From Acidihalobacter ferrooxydans (lineage in GTDB: Bacteria; Pseudomonadota; Gammaproteobacteria; DSM-5130; Acidihalobacteraceae): 64,000 nt of DNA. The notes under the pieces were generated by a model. It was not told where the DNA came from, did not search any database, and saw only the letters and a list, made by a program, of their open reading frames with translations. The translations under genes were made by a program, and so were the position numbers. The stretch spans positions 1,633,486 through 1,697,485 of the forward strand of contig NZ_CP019434.1 of the NCBI RefSeq assembly GCF_001975725.1. The letters are read 5' to 3'. Below are positions 1,110-49,665 of this stretch, piece by piece; within the stretch, counting starts at the first letter, position 1; each line of letters opens with the position of its first letter.

Positions 1110-2312
1110 ATGCGTCTTTCCACGGCTGAATTCACTCAGAGCAGTATCAACTCGATCCTCGATCAGCAATCGCAACTCAATCAGACCCAGCAACAACTCT
1201 CGACCGGGCGCAGCATCGTTACCCCGGCCGACAACCCGCCCGGCGCGGCTCAGGCGCTTCAACTGCAGTCGGCGATCGATACCAACACACAATGGGTCAA
1301 GAACGGCGATGCGGCCACTGCCAGCCTGAATCTGGAGCAAAGCACGCTGACGCAGGTCAAAAACGTGCTGCAAAGTGTCCGGACGCTGGTCATTCAGGCC
1401 AATAACGGTACCGAAAACAACCAAAGCCGAGCCGCGATCGCCACCCAGGTCAAACAAAACCTCCAGGAAGTACTGGGCTATGCCAACACCCGCGACAGCA
1501 ACGGCAACTACATCTTCGCCGGCTCGCAGACCGCGACTAAACCCTTCACGCAGAATCCCGGTGGCAGCTTTGCTTACTCCGGCGATCAGATCCAGCGCTT
1601 CATCCAGATCGGCGGCAGCCGCCAGATCGCCAGTAACGACCCTGGCTCCAGCGTGTTCATGCAGATTCCGGCCGGCAATGGCCGCTTCGTCGCAACTGCG
1701 GGTTCCAGCAACCAGGGCACCGGAATCATCGATCCGGGCTCGGTGACCCAAACAGGCGCCTATACCGGTGATACCTATCAGATCAAATTCACCGGCCCCA
1801 ACACATTCGATGTGACCGATACCACCACCAATACGCCGGTGCTCAGCAATCAAACCTACCAAAGCGGCAGCACGATCAGCTTCGCCGGCATCCAGACGAA
1901 TATCACTGGCGCTCCGAAGGCTAACGACACCTTCACTATTGATCCCAGCGCGAGTCAGAGCGTCTTTAAAACCCTGCAGAACATCGTTACCACCCTGAAT
2001 ACTCCGGTCAGCAATAACGCCTCTAAGACTGCGATGCACAATCAGATCAATCAGGAACTGTCCAGTCTCGATCAGGGCATCAACAACGTAATCAACACCC
2101 AGGCCAGCGTCGGCTCACGTCAAAACGCAATCACCAGTCAGCAGTCCTTGCAGCAGGACTGGGGCGTGCAACTGCAAACGGCTCAGTCCAAGATCCAGAA
2201 CCTCGATTACGCCAAGGCCATCAGCCTCTACCAGCAGCAACTGACCGCTCTGAAAGCGGCGGAACAGACCTACACCAAGGTTCAAGGGTTGTCGCTGTTC
2301 AATTACCTGTGA
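1110..2312 (+). CDS. flgL: Flagellar hook-associated protein 3 FlgL
   Basis: FlgL is the second hook-filament junction protein and sits between FlgK and the FliC filament. The 400-residue product starts with a flagellin-like D0/D1 helix containing ILDQQSQLNQTQQQLSTGR and the PADNP motif near residues 43-47. It ends with the matching C-terminal helix (DYAKAISLYQQQLTALKAAE). Residues of roughly 180-290 form a Thr/Asn-rich variable insert, making the protein longer than the enteric form of about 317 residues. The ATG at 1110 follows a GAGG-like ribosome site overlapping the end of flgK, so the two genes are probably cotranscribed. Confidence 0.95.
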   Translation: MRLSTAEFTQSSINSILDQQSQLNQTQQQLSTGRSIVTPADNPPGAAQALQLQSAIDTNTQWVKNGDAATASLNLEQSTLTQVKNVLQSVRTLVIQANNGTENNQSRAAIATQVKQNLQEVLGYANTRDSNGNYIFAGSQTATKPFTQNPGGSFAYSGDQIQRFIQIGGSRQIASNDPGSSVFMQIPAGNGRFVATAGSSNQGTGIIDPGSVTQTGAYTGDTYQIKFTGPNTFDVTDTTTNTPVLSNQTYQSGSTISFAGIQTNITGAPKANDTFTIDPSASQSVFKTLQNIVTTLNTPVSNNASKTAMHNQINQELSSLDQGINNVINTQASVGSRQNAITSQQSLQQDWGVQLQTAQSKIQNLDYAKAISLYQQQLTALKAAEQTYTKVQGLSLFNYL

Positions 2313-2338
2313 TTCTGCGCCAGAGGGAGAGCGATTTT

Positions 2339-5300
2339 ATGATGCAAGCAAGACGGGCCTTGCAGGCTGAAAGCGTGGTATTCGATCCAGGTTTGGACGA
2401 ACGGCAACTATTCGGCAGTGAAGCTCTTGCGACTGCCCTCGCGGATGCGCTCTTGCTCGTCGGAATCCGTTATGAAGATGTGCTGGAGCAGGGGCAACAT
2501 GTGCCCTACATCGACCTGTTGTTCCACGCGCCTGCAGGTGACAATCTACTCATTGCACTGGGTCTGCCTGTTCGCGAAGGTCGGCTTGTCTGGCCGCAGA
2601 GTTATTCCATCTGGCCCGATGCGGTATTGTCGGAATACACCTCTGAGGTTTTGCGAACCCTGGCCGCCAGTCGGCCACCTTCGGGGCACTTGATCCCGCT
2701 TCCGGGTTTTGAACGGGCCTTGCGCATGAATCCGGATCTTGTGCGCGATGAGCGTCCATGCCCGGGCCTGGAAAATTACTGGACCATTGCCCAGATGCTA
2801 ACGCGTTACCGTTTCGTCGCCGAGCATGTCCGCGCCGGGCGCGTGCTGGAAGTTGCCTGCGGTTCTGGTTACGGGGCCGGGTTACTGCTCAAGGCCCATC
2901 CTGACATACAAGCCTATCTGGGGATGGATCTGGATGAGAGTGCTGTCGACCTATCCAAACGATCTAACCGTGATCCGCGCGCAAGGTTCCTTGCGGGCGA
3001 CCTGGCCAAACTCGAAGAAGAGGCGTTCGATTGGGTGTTGTCCCTGGAAACTGTGGAGCATGTACCGGATCCGGAAGTTTTTCTTAATCAGCTTAAAAGC
3101 CACATGAAACCCGAAGGGGGCATGATCGTCAGCCTGCCATGCGAGCGGTGGCACGGCTTTCATCAGAACCGAAGCCACTGGAGCGCCTGGAATCTTGATC
3201 GCATCCGTCGCTTTATCGAACCGCATTACGAAAGAGTCGATTACTTTACCTACGATCGCCCCGCCTTCACCGAGCACGCCTTCGACATAGCGCGTATCCG
3301 CCCGCTGGATTGGGGCGAAGACCGCTCCCGTCACGAGGACTATGTCATGGTTCTGCGCGGCCCCCGCGCGCGTCCCTTCAGGCCGCGAATCGTTTTGAAA
3401 CGTCGCTATGCGCGCGGCGACGCCTTGCAGGCAACGCCCGTGGTGCACGCGCTCAAGCGCCGCCATCCAGACCATGATTTGGTGGTCAGCACTGATGTCA
3501 ATGAAATTTTTGCCAACAACCCGGATGTCGACTTACTGATGGCCACCAGCTCGGGATTCCGCCCTCGGTCAGGAGATCGCGTCATCGATCTCGATGAGGT
3601 CTATGAGCGGACGCCTGAACTGCATATGCTCGATGCCTATGCCAAATCCGCCGGAATCGCACTCGATGATCCTAAATTGCGCCTGCATCCCAACCGATGG
3701 GATTATCGTGCCGCCCAGGATTTGTTAGGGAGCGCATTCAAATCGTGGGCTGACGCCGGTGTGCGTTATCTCATTGCCGTACATCTTTGCGCGACACCCG
3801 ATCGCAGCTGGCCGGCCTCGCATTGGAATGCGTTTCTCCAGAGTCTGCGCCAGCGCAAGGACATCGGCGTCATTGTGGTCGGTGCCGGCACCGATCTTAT
3901 GGTGGATGCGCATGAGCGTTTGATCAGTGTCGTCAACCGTGGTGATTTTTTGACGACGGCGGCCTGTGTTTCTCTGGCAGATGTACTGATAGGTCCGGAT
4001 TCAGCCTTGCTCCATGTGGCTGCCGCTGTCGGTACTGCTGCTATCGGCTTGTACGGCATGGTCAATCCCGAAAAACGTATTCCCTACGGGGGTGTGCAGT
4101 CGGCCATCGTGGCGCCGGTCGAATGCGCCGGCTGTCTGCATGAATTGCCGCCGCCGGTGACGAATCCTCGCTGCAAATTCGGCAAGTCTTTCTGCATGGA
4201 AGCGATCGAGCCGAAGGTCGTGCTCGACCGGCTGGACACGCAGCTCTCGCTCATGCCGGCCGACACCTGGCACAGACGCTTCAGCTTGCTCTGTAGTGAG
4301 ACTTCATCCACTTTCGACCGAGCGGCGACTGAGGTCTCGGCGCCTGATCCAGCGCCGGTTGCAGGCGTCGAAGCGGCTGCGTTGCCGCCGTCTGCCCGCC
4401 AGGACGCAGCGCGAAAATGGATCGATCCGCAACACGAAAAGATCGCCCAATCCATCGCCGTACTGTTGAGAGTGAGCGGTGCAGCGGAAAGGGTGGGCAT
4501 GACCCGACAGGCATTGGACAACCAATGGCTGTCGGCAGGCACGGTGGTCGAAATCGCCGGATCGGATGTGGCTTTCCTGAACGCGGCCGCAGACCCATTC
4601 CCGGGACAATGGGTGATCATTCTACGTGAGGGCGATATCGTCGCCGAAGACTTCGTTTTAGCGTCAACGCAGGCGGTGTCCGTTCATCCTGAATGGGGCA
4701 TCATCTATTTTGACGAAGCTCAGCAAAATGGCGATGAGCTGTTTTCAAATCCGCATTACAAGCCTGATTTTAATCTCGATTATTTGCGCAGCCTGCCTTA
4801 TACAGGCACTGCGATCGCGGTGCGCAAAGATGTGTTTGAGCGGCTCGGCGGTTTCGATCCGGCCTATGAAGGCTGCGAAGAATACGAATTCATGCTGCGC
4901 ACGTACGAACTTTTGGGCGCGGAGAGCATCGGGCACGTCAGCGGCGCGCTCGTCACTCATGATCCCTTGATCGAGTCAAGCGGGCGTCCGCTTGAAGAAG
5001 TGCTCGTGACGGTCCGGCAGGCTGTGGCGGAACATTTGCAGCGTCTCGGCATCCGTGCACAGGTCGAACCCGGCTCCTTGCCGGCGACCTCGCGGGTGCG
5101 CTATCTGCATGACGCACAGCCTTTGGTCAGCATCATCATTCCCACGCGCAACCAGCGCGACGTGCTGCAACGTTGTCTGGAGTCGCTGCTGTCGCATACA
5201 GCCTGGCCGAACTACGAAATCATGGTCGTGGACAACGGCAGCGACGAAGCCGAAGCGTTGCAGTATCTCGAAGGATTGAAAGCGCTTGAAGACGAGCTGG

Positions 5301-7021
5301 GCGGACGTTTGCGCGTGCTGGATTACCCGCAGTCTTTCAATTACTCGGCAATGAATAATCTGGCCGCCGCAGAGGCGCGGGGCGAGTATTTGCTGCTGCT
5401 CAATAACGACACGGCCGCGCTGCATGAGGACTGGCTGGACGCCATGATGAGCCATGCCCAGCGACCGGAGGTCGGGGTGGTGGGTGCAAAACTGCTCTAT
5501 CCGGACGGGAAAGTTCAGCATGCCGGCGTGATCCTGGGCATGAAAGGCCCGGCGGAGCACGTCTATATCGGCCAGGATGCCAAGTTGCCCGGTCATTACG
5601 GACGCTTGCAACTGGATCAGAACCTGTCCGCCGTCACAGGCGCCTGCCTGCTGGTGCGAAAGTCATTGTTCGAGCAGGTCGATGGACTGGATGCGAAGGA
5701 ACTGGCCGTATCCTACAGCGACATCGATCTGTGCCTGAAGATCGGGAAACTGGGCAAGCGGATTGTCTGGACGCCGTATGCCGTTCTCATGCACGAGGGA
5801 TCGAAAAGCCAGACGGGCGGCGTTGAAGCCGCGCCCGATCCGGTGAAGGCGCGCCGTTTCGACGCAGAACAGGCGGTGATGTATCGGCGCTGGCTCCCAG
5901 AGATGAGGGCCGATCCGGCGTACAACCGCTGCCTGAGCCTGGCCGCGACCGATGTCGTGCCCGAGCCGGATCCGGCATTGCGATGGGATCCGGATTGGCG
6001 ACCAGTACCGCGGATCATTACCCAGCCCGCAGATCACGAGGGCTGCGGTGAATATCGCATCATCGCGCCCACCCGCGCGCTGGTGAACGCAGGTCTCGTT
6101 CAGGGCGAGGCGTCTCAGCGGATTTACTCGCCACCGGAACTGGCCCGCCTGCGACCTGACGCGCTGGTGTTGCAACGGCAGATCGAAGCCCATCAACTCG
6201 AAGCGATGGAACGTCACAAACGCTTCAACGATCCGTTCTGCATCTATGAGATCGACGATCTGGTAACGAACCTGCCGGTCAAGAGTGTGCATAAGAAACA
6301 CCTGCCCAAAGATATGCACAAGCGCCTGAGGCGTGCCGTAGGGTTATGTGATCGGCTGGTTGTGGCGACCGATGTGCTGGCGGAGGCTTATGCCGACCTG
6401 TGTAGTGACGTGCGGGTGGCGCCCAATCACATTGAGGATGCGCGTTGGGGGCACTTGAGACCCCGGCGCGGGGTCGGGAAACGACCGCGCGTGGGTTGGG
6501 CGGGGGGCATCAGTCACAGCGGCGACCTGGATTTGATCGCGGGCGTTATCGAAACCCTGAAAGACGAGGTGGATTGGGTGTTTCTGGGTATGTGCCCGGA
6601 ACGCATCAGGCCCTTCGTAAGCGAATTTCATGCGCCGGTGTCGCTGGACGCCTATCCGGCCACGCTGGCCGGCCTTGATCTCGATCTGGCCGTGGCCCCA
6701 CTGGAAGACGTGCCCTTCAACAACGCCAAGAGTCACCTCAGGCTGCTCGAATACGGCATTCTGGGTTACCCGGTGGTGTGCTCGGATCTGACGCCATACC
6801 GAGGGGAGTACCCGGTGACTCGCGTGCGCAACCGGCATCGCGACTGGGTGGAGGCGATCCGGGCGCACATCGATGACCTCGACGCGACGCACCGTGCCGG
6901 TGACCGCTTGCGCGAGTATGTCCGCGCTCACTGGCTGCTGGAGCACAACCTCGATACCTGGTTGGGGGCCTGGCTGCCGGATGAAAACGGCCGGCCCGTT
7001 CGGCCGGACAAAAAAGTCTAA
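2339..7021 (+). CDS. Giant multi-domain methyltransferase-glycosyltransferase, probable flagellin glycosylation enzyme
   Basis: This 1560-residue protein fuses several sugar-transfer modules. A SAM-dependent methyltransferase domain shows VLEVACGSGYGAGLL near residue 170. A GT9 (heptosyltransferase-like) domain runs from about 347 to 640, with GPDSALLHVAAAVG near 552. A first GT2-like half has IYFDEAQQNGDELF near 789 but no clear nucleotide-binding N-terminus, so it may be inactive. A complete GT2 domain starts with VSIIIPTRNQRD near 930 and has an NND motif near 1022. A GT4-like C-terminal domain has GWAGGISHSGDL near 1385. The ATG at 2339 is preferred over the GTG at 2309 because GAGGGAGA precedes it and the GTG overlaps flgL. 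Its place between flgL and fliC suggests flagellin as the acceptor; this is inferred from position, not shown. Confidence 0.8.
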   Translation: MMQARRALQAESVVFDPGLDERQLFGSEALATALADALLLVGIRYEDVLEQGQHVPYIDLLFHAPAGDNLLIALGLPVREGRLVWPQSYSIWPDAVLSEYTSEVLRTLAASRPPSGHLIPLPGFERALRMNPDLVRDERPCPGLENYWTIAQMLTRYRFVAEHVRAGRVLEVACGSGYGAGLLLKAHPDIQAYLGMDLDESAVDLSKRSNRDPRARFLAGDLAKLEEEAFDWVLSLETVEHVPDPEVFLNQLKSHMKPEGGMIVSLPCERWHGFHQNRSHWSAWNLDRIRRFIEPHYERVDYFTYDRPAFTEHAFDIARIRPLDWGEDRSRHEDYVMVLRGPRARPFRPRIVLKRRYARGDALQATPVVHALKRRHPDHDLVVSTDVNEIFANNPDVDLLMATSSGFRPRSGDRVIDLDEVYERTPELHMLDAYAKSAGIALDDPKLRLHPNRWDYRAAQDLLGSAFKSWADAGVRYLIAVHLCATPDRSWPASHWNAFLQSLRQRKDIGVIVVGAGTDLMVDAHERLISVVNRGDFLTTAACVSLADVLIGPDSALLHVAAAVGTAAIGLYGMVNPEKRIPYGGVQSAIVAPVECAGCLHELPPPVTNPRCKFGKSFCMEAIEPKVVLDRLDTQLSLMPADTWHRRFSLLCSETSSTFDRAATEVSAPDPAPVAGVEAAALPPSARQDAARKWIDPQHEKIAQSIAVLLRVSGAAERVGMTRQALDNQWLSAGTVVEIAGSDVAFLNAAADPFPGQWVIILREGDIVAEDFVLASTQAVSVHPEWGIIYFDEAQQNGDELFSNPHYKPDFNLDYLRSLPYTGTAIAVRKDVFERLGGFDPAYEGCEEYEFMLRTYELLGAESIGHVSGALVTHDPLIESSGRPLEEVLVTVRQAVAEHLQRLGIRAQVEPGSLPATSRVRYLHDAQPLVSIIIPTRNQRDVLQRCLESLLSHTAWPNYEIMVVDNGSDEAEALQYLEGLKALEDELGGRLRVLDYPQSFNYSAMNNLAAAEARGEYLLLLNNDTAALHEDWLDAMMSHAQRPEVGVVGAKLLYPDGKVQHAGVILGMKGPAEHVYIGQDAKLPGHYGRLQLDQNLSAVTGACLLVRKSLFEQVDGLDAKELAVSYSDIDLCLKIGKLGKRIVWTPYAVLMHEGSKSQTGGVEAAPDPVKARRFDAEQAVMYRRWLPEMRADPAYNRCLSLAATDVVPEPDPALRWDPDWRPVPRIITQPADHEGCGEYRIIAPTRALVNAGLVQGEASQRIYSPPELARLRPDALVLQRQIEAHQLEAMERHKRFNDPFCIYEIDDLVTNLPVKSVHKKHLPKDMHKRLRRAVGLCDRLVVATDVLAEAYADLCSDVRVAPNHIEDARWGHLRPRRGVGKRPRVGWAGGISHSGDLDLIAGVIETLKDEVDWVFLGMCPERIRPFVSEFHAPVSLDAYPATLAGLDLDLAVAPLEDVPFNNAKSHLRLLEYGILGYPVVCSDLTPYRGEYPVTRVRNRHRDWVEAIRAHIDDLDATHRAGDRLREYVRAHWLLEHNLDTWLGAWLPDENGRPVRPDKKV

Positions 7022-7045
7022 AGCTTCGCTTCCTCGCGCCGATAC
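7019..7045 (+). promoter_or_regulatory. Sigma-28 (FliA) promoter of fliC
   Basis: TAAAGCTT at 7019-7026 and GCCGATAC at 7038-7045 are separated by 11 bases, matching the FliA consensus TAAAGTTT-N11-GCCGATAA in all but three positions. The -35 element contains the TAA stop codon of the preceding glycosyltransferase gene. The expected transcript would start about 90 bases before the fliC ATG. Confidence 0.9.
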
Positions 7046-7147
7046 CTTGGGTGTAGGCGGCAAACCGCTGCGCTATGAACAATAATCGACCGGGCGGCGG
7101 GCCGCCTGATCAACTCGATCCAAGGAACTCCCCACGGAGGTTGCGTC

Positions 7148-8566
7148 ATGTCTCTCGTCATCAACACCAACATTGCGTCTTTGCAAGCCCAGAACAACTT
7201 GAGCAAAACGCAGAGCCAGCTGGACAACGCCTTGCAGCAACTGTCCTCCGGTCTGCGAATCAACAGCCCGGCCAACGATCCGGCCGGCTACGCGATCGCT
7301 CAGGGCATGACCTCGCAAATCAACGGGTTCAACCAGGCGATCCGCAATGCCAATGACGGCATTTCCTTTGCTCAGGTGGCCAACGGCGCGCTCAACACCG
7401 TCACCAATTCGTTGCAAACCATCCGTACTCTGGCAATCCAGTCCGCCAATGCCTCGAATTCCGCCCAGGATCGCCAGGCGCTGAACCAGGAAGTGCAGCA
7501 GAATATCAAACAGGTCAACACCACTGCCCAGACCACTCAGTTCAACGGTCAAAGCATTCTCAATGGAACGCTTACACAGCTTGTATTCCAGGTGGGCGCG
7601 AATGCCAATCAAACGATTAGTGCCAACGGTATCGATGTGCGCGGGCAGAATCTGGGCGCAACCTACGGTGACGCCAACAGCGTATTCAGCGGCACATTGA
7701 GTAGCTCGACTTCCGGTTCCTTCACTATCAATGGCACCAAGGGCTCCGCGGGAATCTCGACCACCGCGGGCGAGTCGCTTTCCAATGTAATCGCCTCGAT
7801 CAACAATGCCTCTTCGCAGACCGGCGTGTATGCCCAGACGGCCAGTGATGTGTCAGGAACCTTGAGTTACACCTCCAGCGGCGGCGCGACAACCCAGACA
7901 ATCAATGGCGTTCAAGTCAGCATAAGCGCAAACGCAACTTTGAGCCAGGCGGTGGATTCCATCAACGCCTATTCGGCGCAGACCGGCGTGACGGCGACCG
8001 CCAGCGGCAGCTCCGGTATCGTGCTCAGTGACAACACCGGCGCCTCGATCACCTTCAGTGGCAGCAGCACGAATATCACCGCTTCTGGTGCTGCTACTAC
8101 TGCTACTTCGGGCACCTTCCAGGCCGGCGTCGAGCTCTATACCAGCGTGGGCGGAACGATCCAGGTCAGTGGTGCTGCCGCCGAACTGGCTACCTTCGGC
8201 TTCACGACTTCCGGTAGCGGCAGCACATCGGCCAACTTCGACAGCAACACGCTGACTCTCAACAGCACCAATATTCTCACGGCGAAAAATGCGCAATTCG
8301 CCATCAAGGCGATGGATTTTGCATTGACGCAAATGAGTCAGTTCGGTGGCCAGTTGGGGGCCCTGCAGAACCGCTTCCAGGCCACCATCTCCAACCTGCA
8401 GTCGGCGAGCACCAATACGCAGGCCGCGCGATCGCGTATCCAGGATACGAATTTCGCCCAGGAGACGGCGGCGCTCAGCAGGGCTCAGGTGCTCCAGCAG
8501 GCCGGCGTGGCCATGGTCGCTCAGGCCAATGCCTTGCCACAGGTGGCGCTCTCGCTGCTCAAGTAA
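7148..8566 (+). CDS. fliC: Flagellin FliC, main filament subunit
   Basis: Flagellin polymerises into the filament after export through the hollow axial structure. The 472-residue product has the conserved N-terminal D0/D1 helices (start MSLVINTNIASLQAQNNL, then LSSGLRINSPANDPAGYAIA) and the C-terminal D1/D0 helices (QAARSRIQDTNFAQETAAL, ending ALPQVALSLLK). Residues of roughly 175-365 form the variable outer domains and contain two Flagellin_IN-like repeats, each with a TING core followed by a SIN helix. These domains are very rich in Ser and Thr, plausible O-glycosylation sites given the upstream glycosyltransferase. CGGAGG sits seven bases before the ATG. Transcription is expected from the sigma-28 site just upstream. 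Confidence 0.96.
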   Translation: MSLVINTNIASLQAQNNLSKTQSQLDNALQQLSSGLRINSPANDPAGYAIAQGMTSQINGFNQAIRNANDGISFAQVANGALNTVTNSLQTIRTLAIQSANASNSAQDRQALNQEVQQNIKQVNTTAQTTQFNGQSILNGTLTQLVFQVGANANQTISANGIDVRGQNLGATYGDANSVFSGTLSSSTSGSFTINGTKGSAGISTTAGESLSNVIASINNASSQTGVYAQTASDVSGTLSYTSSGGATTQTINGVQVSISANATLSQAVDSINAYSAQTGVTATASGSSGIVLSDNTGASITFSGSSTNITASGAATTATSGTFQAGVELYTSVGGTIQVSGAAAELATFGFTTSGSGSTSANFDSNTLTLNSTNILTAKNAQFAIKAMDFALTQMSQFGGQLGALQNRFQATISNLQSASTNTQAARSRIQDTNFAQETAALSRAQVLQQAGVAMVAQANALPQVALSLLK

Positions 8567-8582
8567 TCCAGCGAAGCCAATC

Positions 8583-8616
8583 GAGGGATCGTCGGGCCGA
8601 ATCGCGGCGATCCCTC
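8583..8616 (+). terminator. Hairpin after fliC, possible terminator or mRNA stabiliser
   Basis: GAGGGATCGTCG at 8583-8594 pairs with CGGCGATCCCTC at 8605-8616 (one G-T pair) around a 10-base loop, 17 bases after the fliC stop. No run of T follows, so it may cap the abundant fliC message against 3' decay rather than act as a classic rho-independent terminator. Confidence 0.55.
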
Positions 8617-8665
8617 TGAACCGGCCCATGCCATTCGGTCGGTTCACTGAGGTGGGACGAAGTGT

Positions 8666-9040
8666 ATGAATCCGATCACTGACATCAAGGGGTTGTCGAA
8701 CCTTATCGGGCCGGTAAAGGCGACGAGTCATTCCTCGACATCGGAAGCTCGATCGTCCGCAAGTGGCAAGATTTTGCCGGTCCAGGGGCAAGGCGGCGCA
8801 AAGGTCGATCGCACGGCGGTAGGCAAGGCGGTTGTCCAGGTCAACAATTACTTGCAGCAGCAAAGTCGCACGCTGGAGTTCAGCGTGGATAAAACCACTG
8901 GCGAGACGGTCGTCAAGATCATCGATCAGGCCAACGGTAAAGTGTTGCGCCAGATTCCCCCGGAATACATGCTTCATCTGGCGCAAACATTGCTTGAACA
9001 TAACGGCGTAAGCAGTACCGGTATCAAGCTCAAAACTTGA
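8666..9040 (+). CDS. flaG: FlaG family flagellar protein
   Basis: The 124-residue product has the FlaG domain in its C-terminal two thirds. This includes LQQQSRTLEFSVDKTTGETV, then VKIIDQANGKVLRQIPPEYML, where the RQIPPE core is the family hallmark. FlaG proteins affect filament length in some polar flagellates; the biochemical role is not settled. The first 45 residues are Ser-rich and unconserved. AGGTGGGA lies about ten bases before the ATG. The gene lies between fliC and fliD, its usual place in polar-flagellar clusters. Confidence 0.9.
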   Translation: MNPITDIKGLSNLIGPVKATSHSSTSEARSSASGKILPVQGQGGAKVDRTAVGKAVVQVNNYLQQQSRTLEFSVDKTTGETVVKIIDQANGKVLRQIPPEYMLHLAQTLLEHNGVSSTGIKLKT

Positions 9041-9131
9041 TTCGCGTGAAAACAAGACATCGGGTTCGCATTGTGGAACACGCATGAACCGGTGAAAACA
9101 GATGGTTTGATCACGCAGGAAGGTTATCGTT

Positions 9132-10523
9132 ATGTCAGGAATTATCAGTTCACCCGGAATCGGCTCAGGTCTGGATATCAACTCGATTGTCTCGAAGCTC
9201 GTCCAGGCTGATTACGGCTCTCAACAAACTCAGATCAAGAATCAGGAATCCACTCTCAATGCTGAGCTGTCGGCTTACGGCAGCATCAACAGCGATGTGT
9301 CCTCGATCAGCGATTCCCTGACTTCATTACAGAATCTGAGCGCGAGTTATGGCGCGTCGTCTTCGGCGTCCGGCGTGGTCTCCGTTGCAACCCAGAGCGG
9401 CGCCGCCCCCGGCAGTTACAATGTCAATGTCACTCAGTTAGCCAGTGCGCAGAGCCTGGCGAGCGCGGATTACAGTTCGCCGACTGCCACGGTCGGTACG
9501 GGAACGTTGACATTTCAGTTTGGCAGTTATGCCAACGGCAGTTTCACGGCCAACAGCAACGCACCGGTTCAGGTCAACATTGACTCCAGCAATAACACGC
9601 TTCAAGGCGTCGCCAATGCGATCAATCAGGCCAATTTCGGTGTCTCCGCCACTATCGTCAATGACGGCAGCGGGTACAAACTGGCCCTGACCTCCAAGAC
9701 AGGATCCAACAACGAACTCAACATTTCTTCTTCCAATTCAAACCTGTCGGCACTGACCTATAACGGAGGCAGCACCGGCATGACTCAAACAGTCGCGTCG
9801 GCCGATGCCAAATTATCGATCAACGGTATCGCGGTCTCGTCCCAGAGCAACACCATCACTGATGCGGTTCAGGGCGTTAATTTCACTTTGGGCGCCACGG
9901 GCTCGGCCACTGTCAGTGTGACGCCAGATACAAACTCAGTAATCAATGCGGTACAGGCTTTTGTCAAGGCATATAACAGCTATGCACAGGACAACAGTAA
10001 ATACAACAGCTACGACAGCAAGACCAAGCAGGCAGGTATTCTGCTGGGCGATGCCACATTGCGGACACTGACCAGTCAGTTGCAAAACGGTGTGGTGAGC
10101 CCAATCGCAGGTGCTCCGGCCAACTATTCCAATCTGATGGCCTTGGGTATCACGGCCAAGTCGGACGGCACACTGAGTCTGAACACCAGTCAATTGACAA
10201 CGGCGCTGAACACGGACTACTCGGGCGTGATCACAGCGCTGCAAGGGGCGGGCAAACAACTTGGCGGCGCGGTCAGCTCGATGACGGGCGCCAATGGCAT
10301 TCTCACCGCTCGCACCAACACCATCAATCAACAATTGACCGGTCTTCAAAACCAGCTTTCGACGCTCAGTACACAAATGCAGCAGCAACAGCAGATGCTT
10401 CTGACACAGTACAATTCGATGGATACACTCGTGGCGAATTTGAAAAATACCGGTAGTTATCTCACCCAGGCGTTGGCCAGCCTGCCGTCCGTGACCAGCA
10501 GTTCAAGCAGCAAAAAAGCCTGA
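9132..10523 (+). CDS. fliD: Filament cap protein FliD (hook-associated protein 2)
   Basis: FliD forms the cap at the filament tip that folds incoming flagellin. The 463-residue protein opens with the FliD_N signature (SPGIGSGLDINSIVSKLVQAD), here starting at residue 7, and ends with a long coiled coil of Leu, Gln and Asn (NQQLTGLQNQLSTLSTQMQQ). The Ser/Ala/Thr-rich centre contains a Flagellin_IN-type repeat around residues 150-200. AGGAAGG lies a few bases before the ATG. It is followed by fliS and fliT; FliT is the export chaperone of FliD. Confidence 0.96.
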   Translation: MSGIISSPGIGSGLDINSIVSKLVQADYGSQQTQIKNQESTLNAELSAYGSINSDVSSISDSLTSLQNLSASYGASSSASGVVSVATQSGAAPGSYNVNVTQLASAQSLASADYSSPTATVGTGTLTFQFGSYANGSFTANSNAPVQVNIDSSNNTLQGVANAINQANFGVSATIVNDGSGYKLALTSKTGSNNELNISSSNSNLSALTYNGGSTGMTQTVASADAKLSINGIAVSSQSNTITDAVQGVNFTLGATGSATVSVTPDTNSVINAVQAFVKAYNSYAQDNSKYNSYDSKTKQAGILLGDATLRTLTSQLQNGVVSPIAGAPANYSNLMALGITAKSDGTLSLNTSQLTTALNTDYSGVITALQGAGKQLGGAVSSMTGANGILTARTNTINQQLTGLQNQLSTLSTQMQQQQQMLLTQYNSMDTLVANLKNTGSYLTQALASLPSVTSSSSSKKA

Positions 10524-10561
10524 ACCATTCCAAATCGACAGTTTGCGAGGGTGTGTAGACG

Positions 10562-10975
10562 ATGATGAATCAGACTCGACGGGCCTTGAGCCAATATCAG
10601 GAAGTAGGAATCGAAAGTTCGATTCTCGAAGCCGACCCCCATGCTGTCATACAACAGCTCATGCAGGGTGTGATCGAATGTCTTTCAACCGCCAAGGGCG
10701 CCATGCAGCGCAATGATGTCGCGCTGAAGGCGAAACGCATCACGCATGCGATCCGCATCATCGATGGGTTGAGGGCTCATCTCGACCATGAGAAAGGGGG
10801 CGAGATCGCGGAAAATCTGGATGCCTTATACGATTACATGAGCCGCCGGCTGGTCGATGCCAACGCGAAAAATGATTTGGTGGCTCTGGATGAGGCGTTT
10901 GGCCTGATGATGGAAATCAAATCCGGTTGGGATGCCATCGATCCCGATCGCAATAAAGAGGCGGTTGCCTCGTGA
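10562..10975 (+). CDS. fliS: Flagellin export chaperone FliS
   Basis: FliS binds the C-terminal helix of flagellin in the cytoplasm and prevents premature polymerisation. The 137-residue, all-helical product contains the family motif ILEADPHAVIQQLMQGVIE and the helix HLDHEKGGEIAENLDALYDYM, the equivalent of the conserved LD...GGEIA.NL..LY.Y segment. Two ATGs are adjacent (10562 and 10565); the first follows GAGGG. The stop TGA overlaps the ATG of fliT, so translation is probably coupled. Confidence 0.94.
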   Translation: MMNQTRRALSQYQEVGIESSILEADPHAVIQQLMQGVIECLSTAKGAMQRNDVALKAKRITHAIRIIDGLRAHLDHEKGGEIAENLDALYDYMSRRLVDANAKNDLVALDEAFGLMMEIKSGWDAIDPDRNKEAVAS

Positions 10976-11310
10976 TGCAAACGCGCGCGAGTCGGGTCGA
11001 TCTCCTGGCAACTCTGATCAGGAATGCCCGGGCGCTGCTGGCTGAGGCAGCCCGCGTGTCGGATTGGGAATCATTGCTCGCAAGGGAGGAAAAATTGCGG
11101 CATGAGCTTTCCGCCGTGCTCGCGGATCCCATACAGTCTGAGGAGGTGGCGGCTGTACGCATAGCCTTGCAGGAATTGCTGGCACTTAATCAGCAAACGG
11201 TGGCGATCATTGAAAATCGGATGAACGAAGCATCCAGTGCCTTACAACACGTTTCGCTGGTTCAACGCGCGGCTCAGGCCTATGGGCATACAGCAAACTG
11301 CTCACCCTAG
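10975..11310 (+). CDS. fliT: FliT-like flagellar export chaperone
   Basis: This short helical protein (111 residues) in the position just after fliS fits FliT, the chaperone of the cap protein FliD; in enterics it also restrains FlhDC, which is absent here. Direct sequence identity to enteric FliT is weak, so the call rests on length, helical heptads (RIALQELLALNQQTVAIIENR) and gene order. The start ATG overlaps the fliS stop as TGATG. The stop codon TAG is the first part of a palindromic repeat element (11307-11473), so the last residues (HTANCSP) may have been changed by that element's arrival. Confidence 0.72.
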   Translation: MQTRASRVDLLATLIRNARALLAEAARVSDWESLLAREEKLRHELSAVLADPIQSEEVAAVRIALQELLALNQQTVAIIENRMNEASSALQHVSLVQRAAQAYGHTANCSP

Positions 11311-31576: not shown

Positions 31577-31751
31577 GCGAGGGAGTTCCCATATCGCTTC
31601 CGTGACGGTTCCATCGAGTGTATCGGCACGGCGGAGTAAATCTTGATAGCCAAGCCTTCCAGTGACGGATTTTCGACGCGAAACCGCGCTGCCGTTGCCG
31701 TCATCTCAAATTAACATTTCAAGTTATTGTTATAGTTAACTATATTATGAT

Positions 31752-49638: not shown

Positions 49639-49665
49639 TAAAGTTTGTTGGGAACCCGCCGATAT
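49639..49665 (+). promoter_or_regulatory. Sigma-28 (FliA) promoter of flgM
   Basis: TAAAGTTT at 49639-49646 and GCCGATAT at 49658-49665, 11 bases apart, match the FliA consensus TAAAGTTT-N11-GCCGATAA in all but the last base. It lies about 50 bases before the flgM ATG. The 266-base gap after flgA (49450-49715) contains no other feature. Confidence 0.94.

Follow-up and report, generated by a model that had tools for sequence, protein, structure and literature searches.

What does a protein that joins a methyltransferase to several glycosyltransferase domains do beside a flagellin gene, and which of its domains attaches the first sugar? The question is raised by a locus of Acidihalobacter ferrooxydans in which the gene order is flgL, a five-module glycosyltransferase gene, fliC, flaG, fliD and fliS. 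It lies in the window, the 64,000-nucleotide stretch of DNA that we analysed, which belongs to a host genome made up of one contig of 3.45 Mb. On the forward strand, flgL occupies positions 1110–2312, the five-module gene 2339–7021, and fliC, which encodes a flagellin of 472 amino acids and the likely acceptor, 7148–8566. We consider it likely that the product of the five-module gene is an FgtA-type enzyme that O-glycosylates flagellin in the cytoplasm, composed of a conserved COOH-terminal core and an exchangeable NH2-terminal cassette, with steps that can be predicted for its domains. A flagellin glycosyltransferase with an FgtA-type core is known; here a methyltransferase-GT9 cassette stands in front of it. 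The main interest of the locus lies in the proposed reassignment of priming to the GT4 domain and in the apparent exchange of the front within one gene.

Gene and domain structure

The gene runs from an ATG at 2339 through 1560 codons in a single intact frame to a stop codon at 7019–7021; an alternative in-frame GTG at 2309 would lengthen the product by 10 codons. A sequence-only reading of this DNA had described one 1560-residue chain next to a Ser/Thr-rich flagellin, and its coordinates and length proved exact, as did the composition of the acceptor, with Ser and Thr together accounting for 33.5% of FliC residues 141–385. Relatives that match the whole chain at 49–52% identity were found in Acidithiobacillus, Igneacidithiobacillus and Tibeticola. 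In comparison with a same-genus relative, dN/dS was 0.08–0.12 for the COOH-terminal half of GT2a, GT2b and GT4, and 0.24 for the NH2-terminal half of GT2a. Given the whole-chain relatives and the low dN/dS of the core, a chance fusion is excluded.

A promoter-like site of the sigma-28 type for fliC (about 7019–7046, forward strand) begins at the stop codon of the five-module gene and is a perfect match, at 7019–7044, to a pattern of the sigma-28 type. With up to one mismatch allowed, this pattern gave three matches in the 64-kb window versus none in 100 shuffles. The position of the match at the stop codon suggests that fliC is probably transcribed late from a promoter of its own and that the five-module gene follows flgL. 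The other two sites were located at 49639–49664 (forward strand, exact), which may be the promoter of a second late gene for flagella or chemotaxis, and at 31621–31646 (reverse strand, one mismatch).

The methyltransferase, the GT9 domain, the GT2 half and the complete GT2 domain that had been read from the sequence were borne out by domain searches or, in the core, by alignment and structure modeling. The NH2-terminal region ahead of them (residues about 10–118, 2366–2692), which was absent from that earlier list, gave no family match in the Pfam search and is conserved in an alignment of all seven proteins with this front. It is followed by a class I SAM methyltransferase (residues 158–289, 2810–3205; E 1.5e-13) and by a heptosyltransferase-like GT9 domain (residues about 345–640, 3371–4258), which passed the Pfam profile with 55.8 bits versus a cut-off of 22 (residues 436–602, E 5.5e-15) and of which residues 351–403 match the NH2-terminal half of a heptosyltransferase model; Pfam and NCBIfam together place GT9 at about 345–602. 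The structure model of the front (residues 1–787, 7 sequences) was poor, with a pLDDT of 49.7, and nothing was drawn from it.

For the core, an alignment of 40 sequences yielded a good model, with a pLDDT of 91.3 and a pTM of 0.89. GT2a (residues 706–905, 4454–5053) had no Pfam match; it forms a compact alpha/beta domain in the predicted core and aligns with intact GT2 domains elsewhere. Its donor site reads REGD (residues 763–766, 4625–4636) in place of DxDD, and most of the aligned intact domains read DHDD or similar. GT2b (residues 911–1202, 5069–5944) is a complete GT2 domain with its donor and catalytic Asp motifs present (LNND and DIDLCL) and a Pfam match at residues 931–1114 (E 1.7e-22; 931–1157 with NCBIfam). 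Structural neighbours were compared for GT2b and GT4. The former proved to be a complete GT-A domain, with 6nqt_F as best neighbour (Z 23.9, rmsd 3.4, 261 residues aligned). The GT4 domain (residues 1221–1552, 5999–6994), with a weak Pfam match (E 0.035), resembled solved GT-B/GT4 enzymes (7qsg_A; Z 25.6, rmsd 3.1, 303 residues aligned); the earlier term "GT4-like" was thus correct as to family and understated a full GT-B/GT4 domain. Phages carry a counterpart of the GT4 domain, as seen in its matches to the phage glycosyltransferase family phrog_7162 (E 1e-37) and to 84 phage records (<60% identity), of which 59 belong to Escherichia phages.

The top Foldseek matches to the core were of the K4CP chondroitin polymerase and heparosan synthase type (2z86_B, E 2.6e-16). 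These enzymes likewise contain two GT-A domains in tandem, both of which are catalytic; they differ in that they possess no GT4 domain, and global superposition was poor (rmsd 16.9). The pair GtfA/GtfB offers a further comparison, by description: its catalytic half is a GT-B/GT4 protein and its partner a non-catalytic homologue that binds the acceptor. The two halves are separate proteins with another acceptor, forming a complex (Gtf1/Gtf2) that is reported to initiate Ser glycosylation with O-GlcNAc on Ser-rich adhesins (PMC5207161).

The core family and FgtA

The arrangement GT2a-GT2b-GT4 is a conserved family core and not a one-off fusion. A search with residues 736–1560 at E 1e-40 or better matched 60 of 369 genomes of the class, about half of them with the whole core, and 57 of 398 genomes of a phylum-wide sample. 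From both samples and from named relatives we assembled 53 full-core genes, including that of the window. Four genes were dropped from this set, L075 (core in two frames), L010 (run of N) and L091 and L103 (both partial), as were, by score threshold, the weaker second gene of L148 and small fragments. In L075, from the sister genus, either the gene is broken or its two frames result from faulty sequencing.

A flagellar gene (FliC, FlgL, FlgK, FlaG, FliD or FliS) was present in the fetched stretch for 44 of the 53 full-core genes versus none of 20 tandem GT2a-GT2b genes lacking GT4 (Fisher 2e-11), where the comparators were 19 hand-chosen of about 41 GT2-only places plus one more, inspected over up to 6 kb on each side of the match, and about ten of them sit in flagellin-bearing genomes. 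Of the 50 full-core genes with enough sequence, 28 were followed on their own strand by FliC at a distance of no more than 1.5 kb. In the class sample, flagellin genes were found in 31 of the 32 genomes with a full core versus 200 of 369 overall. In L095 and L146, two full-core genes stand in tandem beside flagellin, an arrangement that recalls fgt1-fgt2 of Pseudomonas syringae.

In Pseudomonas aeruginosa, a pa1091 mutant is reported to produce non-glycosylated flagellin, and the wild-type glycan is given as one deoxyhexose plus phospho-N,N-dimethylthreonine in the same paper, which terms FgtA a GT2 enzyme (PMC11833859). The locus that we examined reads flgK-flgL-methyltransferase-HAD phosphatase-NTP transferase-FgtA-fliC (B-type)-flaG-fliD, in keeping with PA1088–PA1091 as described. 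The gene identified as that for FgtA is annotated as "CDP-glycerol glycerophosphotransferase family protein" and encodes 1694 amino acids; its assignment to PA1091 fits the locus order, the phosphotransferase front and the B-type flagellin, the locus tag not having been the basis. An 847-kb P. aeruginosa record labelled as a conjugative plasmid (L149, NZ_CP131792.1) contains the b-type flagellar genes in full, flgJ through fleR, which may reflect either duplication of chromosomal DNA or a problem of the assembly.

FgtA and the core of the window protein were 42% identical over residues 730–1548 (828 columns, E 1e-174), with values of 53% for GT4, 40% for GT2b and 27% for GT2a. Both genes lie between the flgL side and fliC, directly upstream of the latter, and both proteins share the GT2a-GT2b-GT4 core with a GT2a domain lacking DxD (HAGD in FgtA). 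They differ in the front, which is a CDP-glycerol phosphotransferase (PF04464) in FgtA and methyltransferase plus GT9 here; in the methyltransferase, which is encoded by a separate gene in P. aeruginosa and within the same chain here; and in GT2b, whose donor motif is lost in FgtA (LGAGV versus LNNDT) and intact in the window protein. The GT4 domain of FgtA is intact. The window gene therefore shares the core and probably the priming step of FgtA but, because the fronts differ, is not its full orthologue. The role in flagellin decoration that had been read from the sequence is upheld by the position between flgL and fliC together with a core common to FgtA, which is reported as necessary for flagellin glycosylation (PMC11833859).

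The resemblance extends, by description, to P. syringae, in which the glycosyltransferase genes fgt1 and fgt2 are also located upstream of fliC, Fgt1 is described as required for flagellin glycosylation and as transferring rhamnose to Ser, and the glycan bears a methylated sugar (PMC3927599, PMC3402453). There, methylation is attributed to VioM, a distinct protein encoded in a different island. Some relatives in the slot between flgL and fliC comprise 1176–1186 amino acids and are thus similar in size to VioT, with 1173 (PMC3927599).

That the protein instead makes a surface polysaccharide (LPS or EPS) and lies in the flagellar cluster by accident is highly improbable. GT2, GT4 and GT9 domains are frequent in polysaccharide loci, all 20 tandem GT2a-GT2b proteins without GT4 lie away from flagellar genes, and 9 of the 53 full-core genes showed no flagellar neighbour in the fetched stretch, two of them having less than 1 kb of upstream sequence. 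The position between flgL and fliC is, however, conserved over many families, and the core is common to FgtA. A search of the genome for Maf (PF01973) gave no match; the four controls that matched were all archaeal, and the search may miss bacterial Maf.

The domain that attaches the first sugar

Motifs were counted over 52 full-core relatives, the window gene being left out. Both Asp residues of DxD in GT2a were present in none of the 52, and the third position was Gly in 49, in agreement with the earlier suggestion that the first GT2 half is degenerate and perhaps structural; 13 of the 20 GT2-only comparators retain both, and 7 of 20 are without DxDD. The Asp of GT2b was kept in 33 of 52 relatives and lost in 19. 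In GT4, Glu1471 was present in 52 of 52 and Lys1464 in 50 of 52. This domain is more conserved across the family than any other; in its COOH-terminal half, 34 of 172 columns reached ≥95% conservation. FgtA has lost the donor motif in each of its GT2 domains and kept GT4 intact, so that the transfer of one sugar appears to coincide with one intact glycosyltransferase domain. On these grounds, and given the family motif counts, we propose GT4 as the primer.

The alternative that, with the same enzyme and acceptor, GT2b primes flagellin and GT4 elongates the glycan is unlikely. GT2b is complete in the window protein, and the structures closest to it are those of polypeptide GalNAc-transferases, enzymes that glycosylate Ser and Thr, although a common fold proves no function. 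The label of FgtA as a GT2 enzyme (PMC11833859) and the alignment of the predicted structure of Clostridioides difficile CD0240 with the glycosyltransferase domain of PA1091, described in 2023 (PMC10714395), may also favour a GT2 domain. Against this stand the single-sugar glycan of FgtA, which has lost the GT2b donor motif and kept GT4, the 19 relatives without the GT2b Asp, and the concentration of conservation in the COOH-terminal half of GT4. Given that FgtA retains ADVDFSLR in GT2b, activity of that domain without the Asp is conceivable.

With GT4 as primer, we infer the following order of steps, sugars and roles, with FliC as the acceptor. GT4 would attach the first sugar, perhaps a deoxyhexose, to Ser or Thr in the central region of FliC, and GT2b, whose donor motif is intact here, would add a second. 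GT9 might then add a further sugar, heptose-like or of another type, and methylation of the glycan would fall to the methyltransferase. The donor-dead GT2a may serve as a scaffold, as a surface on which the acceptor docks and as the junction for cassette exchange. The predicted product is most likely a small methylated sugar chain on the protein of the flagellar filament. Even if, as the earlier reading suggested, the chain could build a methylated oligosaccharide by itself, the sugar donors must come from elsewhere, and two RmlC-family genes in the genome are compatible with dTDP-rhamnose as a candidate donor.

For the broad family including FgtA, we offer a more tentative reading, to which we give somewhat less than even chances: that GT4 is the true protein O-glycosyltransferase, that the donor-dead GT2 domains present flagellin, and that the exchanged front sets the glycotype. 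Such glycotypes would resemble O-antigen variation, but inside one protein. A priming GT4 would reassign the catalytic domain of an enzyme called GT2 in print, and a possible rule would be to predict flagellin glycans from genomes by counting intact domains. No report of FgtA as a GT4 enzyme was recognised in a literature search that covered titles and abstract openings, with few subscription papers.

Apparent exchange of the front within the gene

DNA of the same-genus genome L006 aligned with the window at 17–2310 (77.3% identity) and at 4629–10994 (78.3%), with nothing between. The alignment covers flgL, resumes inside GT2a, at the REGD motif, and runs to fliD; the unalignable segment (2311–4628, forward strand) corresponds to the variable front. 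The L006 core is 81–83% identical to that of the window protein, and its front consists of methyltransferase plus GT4. Flanking alignments with the sister genus ended at nearly the same places (2306–2312 and 4749–4751). The DNA thus looks as if the front had been exchanged as a whole cassette within the gene and the core kept, so that close relatives would swap the front of one enzyme while core, neighbours and acceptor stay constant. No report of such within-gene exchange in flagellin glycosyltransferases was recognised among the titles and abstract openings searched, which included few subscription papers.

When 60% mutual coverage was required, the protein fronts of the 53 genes formed 25 clusters, with types that include GT2 repeats, GT4, sulfotransferase, WbsX, FkbM, RgpF, TPR and CDP-glycerol. 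The methyltransferase-GT9 front (residues 1–678, E 1e-30 or better) was found in 1 of 369 class genomes, that of the window itself, and in six other records (three Acidithiobacillus, Igneacidithiobacillus, an unclassified proteobacterium and Tibeticola). In a tree of GT2b-GT4, a quick one with long branches and with front labels assigned by hand from Pfam tables, the window protein paired with L006 and then with the sister genus and stood away from the other five rows that have its front, and a single clade for the six rows was rejected (p-AU 5e-7). The 35 front changes on this tree depend on fine labels and were given no weight.

It is also possible, if rather doubtful, that the methyltransferase-GT9 front is ancestral to the core clade, with relatives having lost or replaced it and the window gene unchanged. 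The Acidithiobacillus and Tibeticola rows with this front fall inside the same 12-row core clade (SH-aLRT 96), and the data do not fix the direction of exchange. Such an ancestry would nevertheless still need replacement of the front at the same site in the sister lineages; only the direction differs from that of exchange into the window gene.

GC3 was 0.61–0.64 in the front versus 0.73–0.75, and 0.63 in GT2a. We did not accept this difference as proof that the front was imported, and regard it as suggestive only, because GT2a is equally low and an Acidithiobacillus gene with the same front has no such step.

Enterobacterial flagellin islands also place variable modules beside flagellin, and most of their GT41 enzymes and one GT2 enzyme are described as carrying methyltransferase domains as well (PMC4875605). 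As described there, these islands vary by whole genes, whereas the break in the window falls inside one gene.
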